The notes beneath the pieces were generated by a model. The model saw only the letters and a list, made by a program, of their open reading frames with translations, had not been told where the DNA came from and searched no databases. The translations under genes and the position numbers were made by a program. Of a stretch of DNA of 49,332 nt, positions 1,115 through 14,427 are shown piece after piece. The stretch is from the NCBI GenBank assembly GCA_944326765.1, contig CALVFE010000005.1, positions 1-49,332 of the forward strand. Reading direction: 5' to 3'. How positions within the stretch are numbered: the first letter of the stretch is position 1; each line of letters starts with the position of its first letter. The stretch is from an uncultured Elusimicrobiales bacterium (GTDB lineage: Bacteria; Elusimicrobiota; Elusimicrobia; Elusimicrobiales; Elusimicrobiaceae).

Positions 1115-1948
1115 CTATAAGCGCTCCAAGATATTTAATTTTTTCAGCATCCTTTGTTCTTTTTTTAATTCTTTCCAAATATTTGATTGATATTTGAAAG
1201 GAACTGTATGTAAATGAAAAACTCTTTTTCCAGTAATATCTAAAAAGAAAACTTTATCAAACTTTGAATAAAAAAATTGCTGAGTTAACTTTTCATCAAA
1301 AAATACATTCTCGGAAGATAACATCCTATTTGCGCTAACTAATAAATATACTTGATCGGCATATTTTTTATAATGTTTTAATTTATCTTGCTTTTTAATG
1401 ATCACTTTTTGAAGCAATTTATAAGGGTGTTGATTCATCCAAATCGGATTAATACGTTTCCAATGTGTGGGTTGTTCCCAACCCGTGTTATATACATAAA
1501 CTCTTCCTTCACGATTGCGATCTAAATACAACAGAAAGGTTCTGCTTTTGCAAGGTTTTATTTTTTTGATTCTTTTAACATTTGCAAGCAAAAGGCGCAC
1601 TATTTCCTTAGTTAATCTCTCCGCCTTATTTTTATTGATGTCTTCAGTATGCCATAAATGTACTGATGCTAGAAAATTTAATGAGGAATGCTCCTGATAT
1701 ATTTTTTGGGCATTACTTATGATGGAATTTAATAATCTTTCTTTTGCCGCCTTTTTAGTACCGGATTTCCCTACGCAACGTGTCAATTCAATGCCTAAAA
1801 TACCAGTTTTTGTATTGAATCTAAAATCAATGGCGCGATTCGTTTCTTCAATCATAGAAGCTAATGGTACTATAGGATTTAACCGTAGAAAAAGCGTCAA
1901 GATATTTTTTTCATAAGTATATTTTTGTATTTCTGCTTGAGACGACAT
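1115..1948 (-). CDS. Hypothetical protein, 277 aa, possibly nuclease-like
   Basis: Not recognised as a named family. I start it at the ATG at 1948 because GGAG lies 10 bases upstream. A GTG eight codons earlier (1972) has its purine-rich run too close. The protein is lysine-rich and hydrophilic with no signal peptide or membrane segment. Residues 41-57 read D-F-x-F then G-I-E-L-T-R, with D41 and E54 spaced as in PD-(D/E)XK-like folds where the usual lysine is replaced (E-x-T). That resemblance is weak and is inference. A second block near the C-terminus (KVFFLDITGKRVFHLHT) looks like a beta-strand pair. It is divergent from the restriction-modification genes, has the same AT-rich composition, and probably belongs to the same accessory island. 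Confidence 0.6.
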   Translation of the reverse strand: MSSQAEIQKYTYEKNILTLFLRLNPIVPLASMIEETNRAIDFRFNTKTGILGIELTRCVGKSGTKKAAKERLLNSIISNAQKIYQEHSSLNFLASVHLWHTEDINKNKAERLTKEIVRLLLANVKRIKKIKPCKSRTFLLYLDRNREGRVYVYNTGWEQPTHWKRINPIWMNQHPYKLLQKVIIKKQDKLKHYKKYADQVYLLVSANRMLSSENVFFDEKLTQQFFYSKFDKVFFLDITGKRVFHLHTVPFKYQSNIWKELKKEQRMLKKLNILERL

Positions 1949-2114
1949 AGTTTTATATCTCCAACATATCACCCTTTGGGATGATAACTTATATTTCTTA
2001 AACTTATATTTGTAGCTGACAAAAATTGAGCTTCATCTCTAGGAAAAGATTTGCTACTCGTGGTTAATTTGCATGCTAGTATAACGATATTAATATACAG
2101 GGATTCAAGGCTTT

Positions 2115-2146
2115 TTGAGATAAAATATTTTATAATAAATTATATT
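2115..2146 (+). promoter_or_regulatory. Possible promoter for the structured leader
   Basis: AT-rich stretch with TTGAGA at 2115-2120 and two -10 candidates, TATAAT at 2131-2136 and TATATT at 2141-2146. Spacing is poor (10 and 20 bases), so the exact element is uncertain. It lies just upstream of the inverted-repeat cluster that begins at 2166. Confidence 0.3.
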
Positions 2147-2165
2147 CTTAAAGGAGTATTTTTAT

Positions 2166-2447
2166 ATTGGAATAAGCCTTAAACGTGGCTTATATAAAAT
2201 TTATTCTGTTTTTGGGATCCTATCGGAAGGATAGGATAGCTATTGGGAAACCAATATCTAAGCTCACCAAAAACAGCCTATTTAGACACAATAACCGAAA
2301 GCTGATCCCTTTCACCTTATTGTGTCCAATGCTTCTTGCCATCTTTTTGATGGCAAGAAGTTACGGCTGTTTATATATCCAGGGCTGAGCTTAGACTTGG
2401 ATTAGACAGCCGTTTTTTATTTTCCTCCTCTCCTTTCGGATTCCAAT
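2166..2447 (+). ncRNA. Candidate structured leader RNA upstream of the methyltransferase genes
   Basis: Perfect inverted repeats occupy most of this stretch: 2172-2178/2187-2193; 2206-2215/2267-2276 enclosing 2217-2224/2230-2237 and 2241-2246/2251-2256 (GAAA tetraloop); 2285-2294/2317-2326 with an inner 2297-2301/2309-2313; 2332-2343/2349-2360 (12 bp, T5 loop); and 2363-2370/2406-2413 followed by six T. The 10-base segment 2257-2266 is perfectly complementary to 2386-2395 inside the terminator loop. It would therefore interleave with two other stems, making pseudoknots. ATTGGAAT (2166-2173) also pairs with ATTCCAAT (2440-2447). No open reading frame with a plausible start explains it. I do not recognise it as RNase P, tmRNA, 6S or a retron. 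It probably controls read-through into the gene starting at 2457, or acts as a free RNA. Confidence 0.6.
2363..2418 (+). terminator. Intrinsic terminator inside the leader, 39 bases before the methyltransferase start
   Basis: Stem ACGGCTGT/ACAGCCGT (2363-2370, 2406-2413) and T run 2413-2418. The unusually long 35-base loop holds the segment complementary to 2257-2266. No promoter or ribosome-binding site is obvious between it and the ATG at 2457, so expression downstream may depend on read-through. Confidence 0.6.
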
Positions 2448-2456
2448 TTTTTCTAT

Positions 2457-3110
2457 ATGGAACGAAAGGAACAACAAATAAAAAGCGAACATCGTGTAGC
2501 CACGTTTGGCGAAGTTCTTACCGCTCGCCGTGAAGTGGAGGCGATGTTGGACCTCGTCAAAAATGAAGCCGAACGAATAGATAGTCGCTTTCTGGAACCG
2601 GCGTGTGGAACAGGCAATTTTCTTACTGCTATTTTGGAAAGGAAGCTTAAAACATTGCGGGCCCGCTACCGCACCAAAAAGGCTGATTTTGAAGTCCAAC
2701 TTCTTTCCGCTATAGGAAGTATTTACGGAATTGATCTATTAGAAGACAATGTCCGGGAATCGCGAGAGCGCCTCTTTGATTTGGCGGTTCAAGGATATAA
2801 AGATTCTATTCATAAGGCCCCAGATGAGACCTTCCAGCAAATTATCCGTTTGATATTGAGTAAAAATATTTTACAAGGGGATTCCTTAAATGGGATAGAC
2901 CAAATTGTATTTACTCAATGGACTCTCGTTGGCTATCGTTTTATCCTCGAGGAATACAATTTCAAATCTCTAAATAACAACACTCCTGAGCCTGGCCAAC
3001 TATTCCAATCGTCTTTGTGTGATGCTCAGCATAAACCTGTGTACATTCCACAAGCCTTAAAACGATATCCACCCATACACTATCGTAAATTATTGGAGGG
3101 AAATAAATGA
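2457..3110 (+). CDS. N6-adenine DNA methyltransferase-like subunit lacking NPPY
   Basis: 217 aa. Residues 45-56 (FLEPACGTGNFL) are a clear motif I, the S-adenosylmethionine binding loop of gamma-type amino-methyltransferases. The expected catalytic motif IV (N/D-P-P-Y/F) is absent from the rest of the protein. The next gene has both a motif I-like loop and NPPY, so this one probably works as a partner subunit or is a remnant of a duplicated methylase. Its stop overlaps the next start by four bases (ATGA), pointing to translational coupling. No Shine-Dalgarno sequence is visible before the ATG, and the structured leader ends immediately upstream. Low G+C compared with the core genes suggests horizontal acquisition. 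Confidence 0.7.
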   Translation: MERKEQQIKSEHRVATFGEVLTARREVEAMLDLVKNEAERIDSRFLEPACGTGNFLTAILERKLKTLRARYRTKKADFEVQLLSAIGSIYGIDLLEDNVRESRERLFDLAVQGYKDSIHKAPDETFQQIIRLILSKNILQGDSLNGIDQIVFTQWTLVGYRFILEEYNFKSLNNNTPEPGQLFQSSLCDAQHKPVYIPQALKRYPPIHYRKLLEGNK

Positions 3111-4630
3111 CCTTTCTAAAAGAGCTTCATAAGCCAGATATTTTAGATTGTATTGCGCATTTATCTTCAGATGAAGTATTTACGCCACCTAAATTGGTAA
3201 ATGAAATGTTGAATCTGCTCCCACCAGAGTTATTCACCAGCCCAGACACCAAATTTTTAGAACCGGGGTGTAAATCCGGTGTTTTTTTAAGAGAAATAGC
3301 CAAGCGGTTAATCGAAGGATTAAAAGAACGAATTCCAGATTTACAGCAACGCATTGAGCATATTTTTACTAAACAATTATATGGAATTGCCATTACAGAA
3401 TTAACGGGGTTACTGGCACGTCGTTCTGTCTATTGTTCAAAAAGTGCCAATGGAAAATATTCTGTCTGCCACTTTGCTACATCCGATGGTAATATAGAGT
3501 ACACCCGCACGGAACATATATGGAAAAATGGAAAATGCATCTTGTGCGGAGCAAGTCAAAGCCAGTACGATCGAGGAGATATTTTAGAAACTCACGCATA
3601 TAGTTTTATTCACTGTAACGAAGAAGAGAATACAGCACAGTGGAAGAGGTTAAAAGATATGAAATTTGATGTCATTATTGGAAATCCGCCTTATCAATTA
3701 AGTGATGGAGGAAATGGCGCAAGTGCCCGTCCAATTTATCAATTGTTTGTGGAACAAGCGAAGCGTCTTAATCCTCGTTATATTACTATGATTACTCCTT
3801 CTCGTTGGTTCGCTGGAGGAAAGGGGTTAGACCAATTCAGAGAATCTTGTTTAGCTGATGAACATTTGCGTGTCATCGTAGACTTCGTGAATGCCAAAGA
3901 TTGTTTCCCAGGGATTAGTTTAAGTGGCGGTGTAAATTATTTCTTATGGGACAGGGACCATTCGGGGGAATGCTTATTTATCAATCATCATGATAAAAAA
4001 ACGAGTTCCTTGACTCGTAAGCTGAATGAATTCCCTATATTTATTCGGTTTAATGAAGCTATTCAAATAATTAGAAAAACTCAGCAGTTCAAGGAACCTG
4101 TTTTAACCAATATTGTGAGTTCGCGTAATCCATTTGGTATCCCATCTTACGAGAGAGGGGATTTTACAGCGTTTCATCATGCGTTGAAATTGTTCTCGAG
4201 CAAAGGGACTGGTTATATATCATCTAACGCGATAACTGGCAAAAATGTTGAATTGTCTACTTATAAATTAATGCTGAGTAAAGTTACTTCTGAACACGCT
4301 GGGGAGCCAGATAAAGAGGGAAAATTTAAAATTATATCCACAATACAGATTTTAAAACCTAATGAAATATGCACCGATTCTTATTTAACTATTGGCAATT
4401 TTAAAATTTTGGAAGAAGCTCAAAATGCATTGAAATATTTAAAGACGAAATTTGCTCGATTTTTATTACTCCAAGGAGTATCTTCTATTAATTTATCAAA
4501 AGAAAAATTTTTATTTGTTCCGATCCAGAACTTTACACAAGAATGGAGCGATGAAAAGTTATACAAAAAATACGGGCTTACCAAAGAAGAAATTGAGTTC
4601 ATTGAATCCATGATTAAGCCTATGGAATAG
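3107..4630 (+). CDS. Eco57I-type N6-adenine DNA methyltransferase, modification subunit
   Basis: 507 aa. A motif I-like loop is at residues 50-61 (FLEPGCKSGVFL) and the catalytic motif IV is NPPY at 193-196 within FDVIIGNPPYQLSDGG. This is the pattern of Eco57I / type ISP-like adenine methylases, which protect the host by methylating the recognition site. Between the two motifs is an insert with C110, C121, C144 and C147, spaced like a zinc ribbon. The C-terminal third (about 330-507) would be the place for target recognition. It overlaps the preceding partial methyltransferase and is followed by the restriction helicase after nine bases, so all three are one operon. Confidence 0.85.
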   Translation: MTFLKELHKPDILDCIAHLSSDEVFTPPKLVNEMLNLLPPELFTSPDTKFLEPGCKSGVFLREIAKRLIEGLKERIPDLQQRIEHIFTKQLYGIAITELTGLLARRSVYCSKSANGKYSVCHFATSDGNIEYTRTEHIWKNGKCILCGASQSQYDRGDILETHAYSFIHCNEEENTAQWKRLKDMKFDVIIGNPPYQLSDGGNGASARPIYQLFVEQAKRLNPRYITMITPSRWFAGGKGLDQFRESCLADEHLRVIVDFVNAKDCFPGISLSGGVNYFLWDRDHSGECLFINHHDKKTSSLTRKLNEFPIFIRFNEAIQIIRKTQQFKEPVLTNIVSSRNPFGIPSYERGDFTAFHHALKLFSSKGTGYISSNAITGKNVELSTYKLMLSKVTSEHAGEPDKEGKFKIISTIQILKPNEICTDSYLTIGNFKILEEAQNALKYLKTKFARFLLLQGVSSINLSKEKFLFVPIQNFTQEWSDEKLYKKYGLTKEEIEFIESMIKPME

Positions 4631-4639
4631 GAGAGAGCG

Positions 4640-7165
4640 ATGCCCGAATTATTGAATGGTCATAAAGTACCTAAAATTTATGTTTATACAGAACCCCAAT
4701 ACAAAACTGCTGAATGGGAAGGCGCCCGTAATGGAAGGGGTTTTTTAAAAATCGGTTTTACAACGGGGAACGTAGCAGAACGCATCCGTCAGCAATTTCC
4801 GACGCATAAGCCAATAGACAACCCCTTTGAAATCTTATTGGAAGAGGTCGCCATTCGGCAAGACGGTACATATTTTACCGATAAAGACGTCCACCGTATT
4901 TTGCGTAAAAATGGGGTGATGGAACGAACCACACAGGGCAAACATACCGAATGGTTTGAATGTACCTTGGAAGAGGTAGAAACTGCCATTTTTGCCGTTA
5001 AAAACCATAAAACTAACATTACAGAGCGCCATTTTGATTTTGCTATGAGGCCTGAACAAAAAAAGGCCGTAGAAGTAACCAGTGCTTATTTTAAAAACTT
5101 TTCTTATGAAAGGGAGCATAAAGCCCCGCATTTTTTATGGAATGCTAAAATGCGATTTGGCAAAACTTTTACGGCCTACCAATTGGCAAAAAAAATGGGC
5201 TGGAAAAAAGTGTTGGTGCTTACTTTTAAGCCAGCGGTACAAAACTCCTGGGAATCTGATTTAATGAGCCATGTGGATTTTAAGGATTGGCAATTTATTT
5301 CTCGGACAGGTACGCAATATAAAGACATAGACCCACAAAAGCCATTTGTATGGTTTGCTAGTTTTCAGGATGTCCTTCAAAAAACAGATGCTGGTGGTAT
5401 CAAACCTCGCAATGAGGAAATACACTGTATCAACTGGGATTGCATCATATTGGATGAATATCATTTTGGCGCTTGGCGGGAGAATGCTAAAGATCTGTAC
5501 GATGCAGAGGATAAAGCCGAGCAAAAAAAGCAAGACGGAGACGGCTTGGAATATTATGACGAAGAACAAATGCCGCTTACAACAAATGCATATTTGTATT
5601 TATCCGGTACTCCGTTCCGGGCGTTGCATAATGGAGAATTTTTAGAAGACCAAATATTCAACTGGACCTATACCGACGAACAAGAAGCCAAGGAAGAATG
5701 GCCAAACGATAAAGGTGAAAATCCTTATTTGGAATTGCCCAAAATGGTTATGATGACCTATCAAATGCCGGAAGAAATTCGTTCTATTGCACTATTAGGA
5801 GAATATAACGTATTTGACCTCAATGAATTCTTCAAGGCCAAAGAAGAAGGGGGCGTGTGCAAGTTCCTGCACGAAGCCGAAGTAACCGACTGGTTAAATT
5901 TAATTCGTGGCCAGTACAAGCCTACTACCCTGGACGACTTAAAAATAGGGAAAAAACCTCCTATGCCTTATTCTGATATTCGATTATTGAGTGCATTAAC
6001 ACACACATTTTGGTTTCTGCCATCAGTGGCCAGTTGTAAGGCCATGGGGGAACTCCTTTCCAAACATCCTTTTTATAAAGAATATAAGATCATTGTATGT
6101 GCTGGGGCTGAAGCCGGTATAGGAGTAGAGGCAATGAAGCCTGTACGACAGGCTATAGGTAAAGGATTTGATACAAAAACGATCACTTTATCTTGTGGGA
6201 AATTGACCACCGGAGTCACCGTCCCAGAGTGGGGTGGAATTTTTATGTTGCGTAATACTTCTAGCCCTGAAACATACTTCCAATCGGCTTTTCGGGTCCA
6301 ATCTCCTTGGACGGTACGGAATCCAGACGGATTGAATCCGAATGAAAAGAGCATTATTAAAGACACTTGTTATGTTTTTGATTTTGCCCCGGATCGTGCC
6401 TTAAATCAAATTGCCGAATATAGCGCACGGCTTAGTGCTAATAATAAAGAATCACCAGAAAAAAGGGTAGAAGAGTTTATTCATTTTCTACCCGTTCTTT
6501 GCTACGATGGCAGTAGTATGGAATTAATCAATGCCAGTGAGCTTTTGGATTTAGTTATTTCAGGAACTGCTTCGTCTATGTTAGCTAGACGTTGGGAAAG
6601 TGCCTTGCTTGTTAATGTAGATAATCCAACATTAATCAAATTATTGGGAAATGATAAAGCAATGGAGGCTCTTTCTCGCATCGAGGGGTTTAGAAACCTG
6701 AATAAAGATATTACGACATTAGTCAATAAATCAGAAGCCTTAAAGAAAGTAAAACTAGAAAACAAAGATAAGATGTCTAGAAAAGACAAAAAAGAACTTA
6801 CAGAGGAAGAAAAAGAGATTAAGTCAAAGCGTAAAGAGATACAAGAAAAATTGCTTAAGTTTGCTACGCGTATACCTGTATTTATGTATTTAACAGACTA
6901 TCGTGAACAGACCTTACACGATGTTATAACGCAACTAGAACCTGAACTGTTCCAAAAAGTCACCGGCCTCACCATTCCTGATTTTGAATTACTGGTAAGT
7001 ATTGGTATATTTAACGAACAGGTCATGAACTCGGCTGTATTTGCCTTTAGACGTTATGAAGAGGCCAGTTTGTCCTATACAGGTATAGTCAAACACAATG
7101 AACTATTAATCGGCGGTTTTAATACGAAGATTGAACGTAAGGAGTACGAAAGTATTACGATGTAA
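4640..7165 (+). CDS. Restriction helicase with N-terminal GIY-YIG/T5orf172-like domain
   Basis: 841 aa. Residues about 12-120 resemble the T5orf172/MUG113 branch of the GIY-YIG nucleases (FLKIGFTTGN, then AERIRQQF, and a closing TEWFEC). A superfamily 2 ATPase follows: Walker A-like MRFGKT near 171-176, DEYH near 272-275, SGTPF near 321-325, and a motif V/VI-like region (GKLTTGVTVPEW, then SAFRVQSPW). A charged, coiled-coil-like stretch lies near 700-745. The predicted role is the ATP-dependent translocating and cutting subunit that acts with the two upstream methyltransferase proteins. No PD-(D/E)XK site is evident, so the N-terminal domain may be the nuclease. AGGAG lies before the ATG. Confidence 0.8.
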   Translation: MPELLNGHKVPKIYVYTEPQYKTAEWEGARNGRGFLKIGFTTGNVAERIRQQFPTHKPIDNPFEILLEEVAIRQDGTYFTDKDVHRILRKNGVMERTTQGKHTEWFECTLEEVETAIFAVKNHKTNITERHFDFAMRPEQKKAVEVTSAYFKNFSYEREHKAPHFLWNAKMRFGKTFTAYQLAKKMGWKKVLVLTFKPAVQNSWESDLMSHVDFKDWQFISRTGTQYKDIDPQKPFVWFASFQDVLQKTDAGGIKPRNEEIHCINWDCIILDEYHFGAWRENAKDLYDAEDKAEQKKQDGDGLEYYDEEQMPLTTNAYLYLSGTPFRALHNGEFLEDQIFNWTYTDEQEAKEEWPNDKGENPYLELPKMVMMTYQMPEEIRSIALLGEYNVFDLNEFFKAKEEGGVCKFLHEAEVTDWLNLIRGQYKPTTLDDLKIGKKPPMPYSDIRLLSALTHTFWFLPSVASCKAMGELLSKHPFYKEYKIIVCAGAEAGIGVEAMKPVRQAIGKGFDTKTITLSCGKLTTGVTVPEWGGIFMLRNTSSPETYFQSAFRVQSPWTVRNPDGLNPNEKSIIKDTCYVFDFAPDRALNQIAEYSARLSANNKESPEKRVEEFIHFLPVLCYDGSSMELINASELLDLVISGTASSMLARRWESALLVNVDNPTLIKLLGNDKAMEALSRIEGFRNLNKDITTLVNKSEALKKVKLENKDKMSRKDKKELTEEEKEIKSKRKEIQEKLLKFATRIPVFMYLTDYREQTLHDVITQLEPELFQKVTGLTIPDFELLVSIGIFNEQVMNSAVFAFRRYEEASLSYTGIVKHNELLIGGFNTKIERKEYESITM

Positions 7166-13818: not shown

Positions 13819-13870
13819 TTGACTCGTTTTCTTTTTTTTTGATAAATTTTGCGTATGAACAAAATTTATC
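13819..13870 (+). promoter_or_regulatory. Pilin promoter and inverted repeat around the start codon
   Basis: TTGACT (13819-13824), a 16-base spacer and GATAAA (13841-13846) make a plausible promoter whose start site would be at about 13853, next to the ATG at 13855. A perfect 10-bp inverted repeat, GATAAATTTT (13841-13850) and AAAATTTATC (13861-13870), encloses the start codon in its 10-base loop. No Shine-Dalgarno sequence is visible. Confidence 0.5.
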
Positions 13871-14427
13871 AAAAAACATTCCCCGGCGAAAAAAACGCCG
13901 GATTTACGCTCATAGAGTTATTAGTGGTCGTTTTAATTATTGGTATTCTGGCCGCCGTTGCCCTGCCGCAGTATCAACGCTCGGTAATGAAAGCCCGATA
14001 TACCAAGGCCATCATATGGACCAAAGCCGTCAAAGATGCCTTTGAACTATATTATTTGGCGAATGGAGCATATCCCAGTAATTTTGATGATGTGGATATC
14101 AATGTTCCGACTTTGCAGTTGGCGAAGGGACAACCGTTTCTTCGGGTTGTTGAGGGGGGAAAGCACATTGGATCAATATGGCGTTTTACCTCTGGCGGCG
14201 GAATGCTGAAAATGGAGTTTAAGAGCGATCCTGTTTTTGGCGAATTACAGTATTATATGATGCTGGATCATTCCCAGTATCCCGGAGAAAGATATTGCGG
14301 CTTTTATGGTGTTACGAGTGAAGCTAAAATAGCTGCGGCTACAGGATTCTGTAAGGGAATGGGGGGGACGCCGGCCCCTAAGATACCGGGCTATTCTTCT
14401 CTGCATAAGCGTTTTTTATTGCCATAG
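13855..14427 (+). CDS. Type IV pilin-like protein (PilE/pseudopilin type)
   Basis: 190 aa from the ATG at 13855; a TTG two codons earlier is possible but less likely. After a 14-residue basic leader comes the prepilin peptidase site (KNAG before FTLIELL), with the conserved Glu at +5. A 20-residue hydrophobic helix ending in AAVALPQYQ follows, which both anchors the precursor in the inner membrane and packs the assembled fibre. The globular part has one cysteine pair, in CGFYG...GFCKG, as in the disulfide-closed D region of pilins. Elusimicrobia carry many such genes. It has its own promoter and terminator, so it is monocistronic and not part of a pilus assembly cluster here. Confidence 0.9.
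   Translation: MNKIYQKTFPGEKNAGFTLIELLVVVLIIGILAAVALPQYQRSVMKARYTKAIIWTKAVKDAFELYYLANGAYPSNFDDVDINVPTLQLAKGQPFLRVVEGGKHIGSIWRFTSGGGMLKMEFKSDPVFGELQYYMMLDHSQYPGERYCGFYGVTSEAKIAAATGFCKGMGGTPAPKIPGYSSLHKRFLLP

Follow-up and report, generated by a model that had tools for sequence, protein, structure and literature searches.

In the 49,332-nt stretch of DNA from an uncultured Elusimicrobiales bacterium analysed here (hereafter the window), a densely paired region ending in an intrinsic terminator precedes DNA methyltransferase and restriction genes, raising the question of what this RNA does and whether it serves restriction genes in particular. Comparison with related sequences makes it probable that the region belongs to a new family of two-state, cis-acting transcription-attenuation leaders, of which it would be a single copy.

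The leader in the window

The stems described in a first sequence-only reading of the locus were all found (Table 1), together with the intrinsic terminator, a downstream ATG codon without a visible ribosome-binding site (no AGGAG upstream) and a 10-nt reverse-complementary match, hereafter the word. The MFE of positions 2150–2470 is −119.8 kcal/mol, against −70.6 ± 5.1 in dinucleotide shuffles (plus strand, z −9.7, 0/100 shuffles). The minus strand scores equally, as palindromic stems must; the T-run, the −10 box and the genes that follow give the leader its orientation. Membership of an ordinary known RNA class, which the sequence-only reading had left to be checked, was not found in Rfam: neither the window leader nor 20 of its relatives reached the gathering score of any family, and the strongest local hit of the window leader (E 0.49) was at chance level.

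Table 1. Coordinates of the leader RNA and of the genes behind it in the window.
Feature	Position	Strand	Remarks
−10 box TATAAT	2131–2136	+	Probable −10 box of the leader promoter, from sequence
P1 hairpin ATAAGCC/GGCTTAT	2172–2193	+	Optional 5' hairpin
P2	2206–2276 (strands 2206–2216/2266–2276)	+	Encloses P3 and P4; strands 2206–2215/2267–2276 in the sequence-only reading
P3 hairpin	2217–2224/2230–2237	+	Inside P2
P4 hairpin	2241–2246/2251–2256	+	Inside P2
Word, 5' strand TCTAAGCTCA	2257–2266	+	Partner 2386–2395
Antiterminator helix (AH), 5' strand AAACAGCC	2271–2278	+	Partner 2365–2372; compensatory changes
P5 hairpin	2285–2326	+	Apical loop CTGATCC (2302–2308), palindrome GATC; candidate kissing-dimer loop
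P6 hairpin	2332–2360	+	
Intrinsic terminator hairpin	2363–2413	+	5' strand 2365–2372 doubles as AH 3' strand
Word, 3' strand TGAGCTTAGA	2386–2395	+	Inside the terminator loop
Terminator T-run (T6)	2413–2418	+	
First gene behind the leader, N6-MTase part	2457–3110	+	MmeI-type MTase domain, below Pfam cut-off
Eco57I-type DNA methylase	3107–4630	+	
T5orf172 (GIY-YIG-like) and ResIII helicase protein	4640–7165	+	Probable restriction subunit

P1 is missing from many copies of the leader, such as those of genome G060. Divergent to the leader, the window carries an ORF of 285 aa (1115–1972, minus strand) with no Pfam or PADLOC match, and a partly palindromic, operator-like motif centred on ATGTATAAGTGTATACC occurs in three copies near the left edge (262–281, 384–401 and 486–505).

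Distribution of the family and the genes behind it

With blastn, the window leader matched 45 of 101 related genomes and one further place in its own genome; an end-to-end alignment, running from the promoter region through the T-run, was possible for 31 copies. A covariance model (R1), which describes P2–P6 in 166 positions but neither the word pairing nor the complete terminator, detected the leader in 61 of 66 congeneric genomes and 18 of 18 of the sister genus, in none of the remaining genera of the same family, and in 13 genomes of a distant Elusimicrobiota family, with a repeat search of 12 of these. When genomes of the window's genus were searched individually, the six with the most copies held 127, 92, 46, 45, 29 and 24 (R1, E ≤ 0.01); the window's own genome held two. 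An exact three-part pattern was found in 73 stretches among 84,980 species genomes, 71 of them named Elusimicrobiota and two titled only 'uncultured bacterium'. A phage or plasmid origin was rejected, since no leader was found in viral contigs and blastn of the window leader gave no hits in phages and one chance hit of 27 nt in plasmids. No description of the family was found in the open-access literature, although absence there is no proof. Terminator/antiterminator leaders are a known kind of control; this family and its copy number are, as far as searched, new, and we know of no riboswitch class with that many copies per genome.

A co-directional ORF lies behind 191 of the 196 copies with enough sequence, as picked by a mechanical ORF finder with a few doubtful choices. 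The median distance from T-run to start codon in this set is 47 nt, leaving little space for a further promoter. The 3' strand of the terminator has 6–8 of 8 positions paired in these copies, with at least five T in the next eight bases in 187 of them, and an extended −10 TATAAT-like box, recognised by sequence only, is present upstream of 93 of 198 copies. Such a promoter-like box, a strong terminator in most copies and a compact fold would also suit a free-standing small RNA gene, the following gene having its own promoter. However, it is hard to reconcile this explanation with a same-strand gene so regularly and so closely behind, or with a helix that competes with both P2 and the terminator (AH, see below), and we consider it very unlikely. 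A stable leader could still have a function as an RNA by itself.

The sequence-only reading took the leader for a control of restriction operons. That specificity was not supported: the downstream genes belong mostly to other classes, and restriction genes are a minority class within a surface-plus-defence regulon. A prepilin N-terminus was found in 101 downstream ORFs of the 196-copy list, so that type IV pilin-like genes make up about half. Pfam assignments for 97 downstream proteins included N_methyl (32), glycosyltransferase 2 (13), OMP_b-brl (8), EcoRI_methylase (4), glycosyltransferase 8 (4) and SNF2 (3), to which PADLOC added type II/III methylases and DrmD-like helicases. The expansion of pilins does not require the leader RNA, since 74 N_methyl matches accompany just two leaders in the window genome, and genome G107 has 80 and no leader RNA. 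If the leader works as we infer, one RNA design would control as many as roughly a hundred genes for surface and defence functions in one small genome, and this could help to explain the choice that gut Elusimicrobiota make between their pilin-like genes, which number 38 to 150 or more in each genome. As further observations on pilins, N-methylation motifs number 80 to at least 150 per genome in G060, G026, G041, G047 and G107 (1.1–1.7 Mb), and the window contains a type IV pilin-like gene (GFTLIELLVVV; 13849–14427, plus strand) without leader RNA.

A regulon combining surface and defence genes might instead be read by a protein, such as a NusG paralogue or another RNA-binding factor, as with RfaH/ops or LoaP. 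The RfaH regulon comprises surface sugars and pili, the target genes of RfaH and LoaP antitermination are similar to those found here, and the junction letters UUUA, RARY and CA around P5 and P6 are conserved. The Elusimicrobiota element differs in being a leader of roughly 250 nt with its own terminator, and a protein reader would leave the palindromic loops and private words described below unexplained. We regard this possibility as rather doubtful.

Two mutually exclusive folds

Covariation was found in all five helices P2–P6, with two-sided changes in 42 of 49 pairs over 67 distinct copies, in an alignment that had been fitted to the structure. RNAalifold alone missed P3 and P4, due to loop-length classes. 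The strands of the word pair over at least 8 bp in 193 of 198 distinct copies, with a sequence that differs in most of them; the mean is 10.0 bp, against 5.35 bp in mismatched pairs.

The antiterminator helix AH, which took no part in building R1, is formed by the 3' strand of P2 and the next three bases (AACAGYYG) with the 5' strand of the terminator (CGGCUGUU); in the window, its 5' strand AAACAGCC overlaps the 3' strand of P2. The first two bases 3' of P2 are pyrimidines in 196 of 198 copies. In copies with a terminator 5' strand off consensus, AH still has 7/7 pairs (6/7 in L019): a G-C pair of AH is changed to A-U in L095 and L016, with P2 losing a pair, and C-G is changed to U-A in L166 and L266, a change to U-A being found also in L159. 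On one alignment (A4), two-sided changes were present in four of the seven pairs (0/500 shuffles) and slid versions of AH paired far less; both strands being strongly conserved, this support amounts to a few independent compensatory events.

The sequence-only reading described the 10-bp pairing as a pseudoknot, which is true only with respect to P2 and the terminator; with AH, a helix absent from that reading, the pairing is nested. Since word and AH are nested with each other, and the word is pseudoknotted with P2 and the terminator, we read them together as one antiterminator. Terminator and antiterminator helices are mutually exclusive, each is supported by covariation, and the leader lies between a predicted promoter and a co-directional gene, the arrangement of an attenuator.

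In constrained folding of 186 copies, the antiterminator is the lower state before the terminator 3' strand exists (median 8.1 kcal/mol, 97% of copies), and the terminator state is lower afterwards (median 3.8 kcal/mol, 82%), a computed balance that leaves out the state-1 pseudoknot and co-transcriptional rates. For the window copy, the corresponding values are −86.1 (antiterminator) versus −80.3 before and −97.9 (terminator) versus −89.9 after. Pairing, covariation and computed energies thus back the earlier proposal that the 10-bp pairing belongs to a switch able to set termination on or off.

The two-state architecture is well supported by these comparisons, and each gene seems to have, in the leader before it, an on/off switch of its own; switching in vivo, its direction and a trans signal acting on the leader are what we infer from this architecture. 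Each copy would be transcribed from its own promoter and fold into one of two states. In state 1, P2–P6 and the intrinsic terminator would form, and the gene would be off. In state 2, the word strand and AACAGYYG would pair with the terminator loop and CGGCUGUU in a single long antiterminator hairpin enclosing P5 and P6, and the gene would be on. The antiterminator would be able to form first as the RNA emerges from the polymerase, and the terminator would be more stable once its 3' half is out, so that the outcome would be set by kinetics and by whatever holds or releases P2. An element following the terminator (CCAAAACAG, element D) resembles a second P2 3' strand and is common before pilins of two genomes; with 9.4 versus 8.5 of 11 pairs against a weak control, it was suggestive and was kept out of the model.

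Two exclusive folds, a terminator, near-balanced energies and many copies per genome are also properties of a riboswitch, in which a small molecule bound at the P2/P3/P4 or P5/P6 junction would set the terminator. Riboswitches controlling pilins exist, and c-di-GMP class I and II riboswitches resemble the leader in exerting RNA control before type IV pilins; the leader differs from them in its fold, its many non-pilin targets and the lack of an Rfam match. However, no strongly conserved, unpaired aptamer-like core was seen in the alignments, the invariant bases lying mostly in P2, AH and the terminator, and this weak conservation of unpaired bases mildly disfavours a small-molecule aptamer. 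The absence of any Rfam family and of an obvious common metabolite among the controlled genes points the same way. A riboswitch seems rather unlikely.

Palindromic P5 loop and private words

The apical loop of P5 is self-complementary in 192 of 198 copies (97%; shuffled loops 37%), the palindrome being a hexamer in 136 copies (shuffles 5%), such as UAAUUA, UUAUAA, UCAUGA, UUCGAA, UUGCAA and CUCGAG, and a tetramer in the remaining palindromic copies, mostly GAUC or AGCU. Counted as unique loops, 31 of 36 are palindromic. The loops of P3, P4 and P6 are palindromic only at shuffle level, and the P5 hexamer has no partner elsewhere in the leader RNA (12 versus 14.6 expected). The distant family has the same kinds of P5 loop in most copies. 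The loop thus stays self-complementary while its sequence changes, as in a kissing-loop homodimer, and the simplest reading of these sequences would be that two leader RNAs make a homotypic kissing contact. The HIV-1 dimerisation initiation site likewise has a 6-nt palindrome in a hairpin loop, and in the P5 loop, as in HIV-1, this is often preceded by 2 nt and followed by 1 nt (e.g. AC-UAAUUA-C). The P5 loop, by contrast, belongs to a bacterial leader and has many different palindromes per genome; it is a candidate dimerisation loop, proposed from its sequence.

The word is the most variable stem among the G060 copies (identity 0.32, versus 0.73 for P3, 0.58 for P5 and 0.62 for P6). Among the sampled copies, which come mainly from two rich genomes, identical words occurred in 0 of 1,458 pairs within a genome and in 69 of 18,045 pairs between genomes. 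Permutation of genome labels gave 5.2 expected within-genome sharing pairs versus none observed (p = 0.005), and column-shuffled words gave 0.2 identical pairs. Many of the between-genome sharing pairs are orthologues; others (for example L106/L221, L122/L173 and L141/L023) have unrelated genes and RNA identities of 0.66–0.77, near the random median of 0.67. Conversely, RNAs 0.91 identical within a genome differ in their words (L014/L146 and L124/L128). Ordinary helix drift explains neither observation well; possibly, selection disfavours cross-talk in trans while words turn over slowly and leader bodies and genes recombine.

A partner of the word in tRNA was rejected, since 8–10-mer matches to 28 tRNAs from the loci were at control level. 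In rRNA operon regions, 31 words had a nine-mer match versus 44 in the control, not enriched and if anything fewer, although dinucleotides were not preserved in this control and we do not build on the result. Over 1.2 kb of downstream sequence there was no enrichment of the word's reverse complement, and the word itself gave 19 versus 10 eight-mers. T-box leaders are also multi-copy, with a conserved antiterminator/terminator pair and a specificity stretch that varies per copy, and the Elusimicrobiota leaders share with them the multiple copies, the two states and the variable word. They differ in having no T-box match in Rfam, words that match tRNAs no better than chance, and downstream genes that are not amino-acid genes.

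As the signal we favour, with far less confidence than we place in the switch, a contact that leaders would make by their palindromic P5 loops; the private word would prevent crossing between the circuits of different genes. In pT181-type attenuation, a two-state attenuator is set by an antisense RNA in trans. The Elusimicrobiota leader would share the two states and, hypothetically, the setting by an RNA in trans, but no antisense gene was found and the candidate trans RNA would be the leader itself. Palindromic loops and words unique within a genome suggest RNA–RNA recognition as the control, which is directly testable in vitro; neither feature is known to us from elsewhere or was found in Rfam or the papers searched. 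A bolder proposal, to which we assign a low probability, is a gene-private epigenetic switch with a self-reinforcing on or off state for each pilin, glycan or methylase gene. By way of the P5 loop, terminated leader RNAs would contact nascent leaders from the same gene, and owing to its private 10-nt word each would trap its own partner strand alone; words would then have to be unique within a genome, as observed.

An apparent recombination junction is visible inside leader L005, which matches window positions 2120–2215 at 98% identity, including the promoter, P1 and the beginning of P2, before continuing into another leader body and gene. A relative of the 285-aa ORF lies upstream of L005, the downstream gene of which differs from that of the window. 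Recombination between copies, and as many as 127 copies in a 1.7 Mb genome, could suggest a mobile or repetitive, MITE-like element that inserts before genes and has no regulatory role. However, the 40 copies of G060 are diverged (median identity 0.68, maximum 0.87), every helix covaries and the orientation to the gene is fixed. Near-identical, orientation-independent copies were not encountered; a MITE or insertion element is extremely improbable.

The two word strands of L254 belong to two different known words, a second sign of recombination among leaders; L254, L129 and L133, with mismatched word strands, may be hybrid leaders or assembly chimeras. In G240, tandem leaders (L266 and L275) precede an EcoRI-type methylase gene and have a word in common, the pairing of which is lost in the second.
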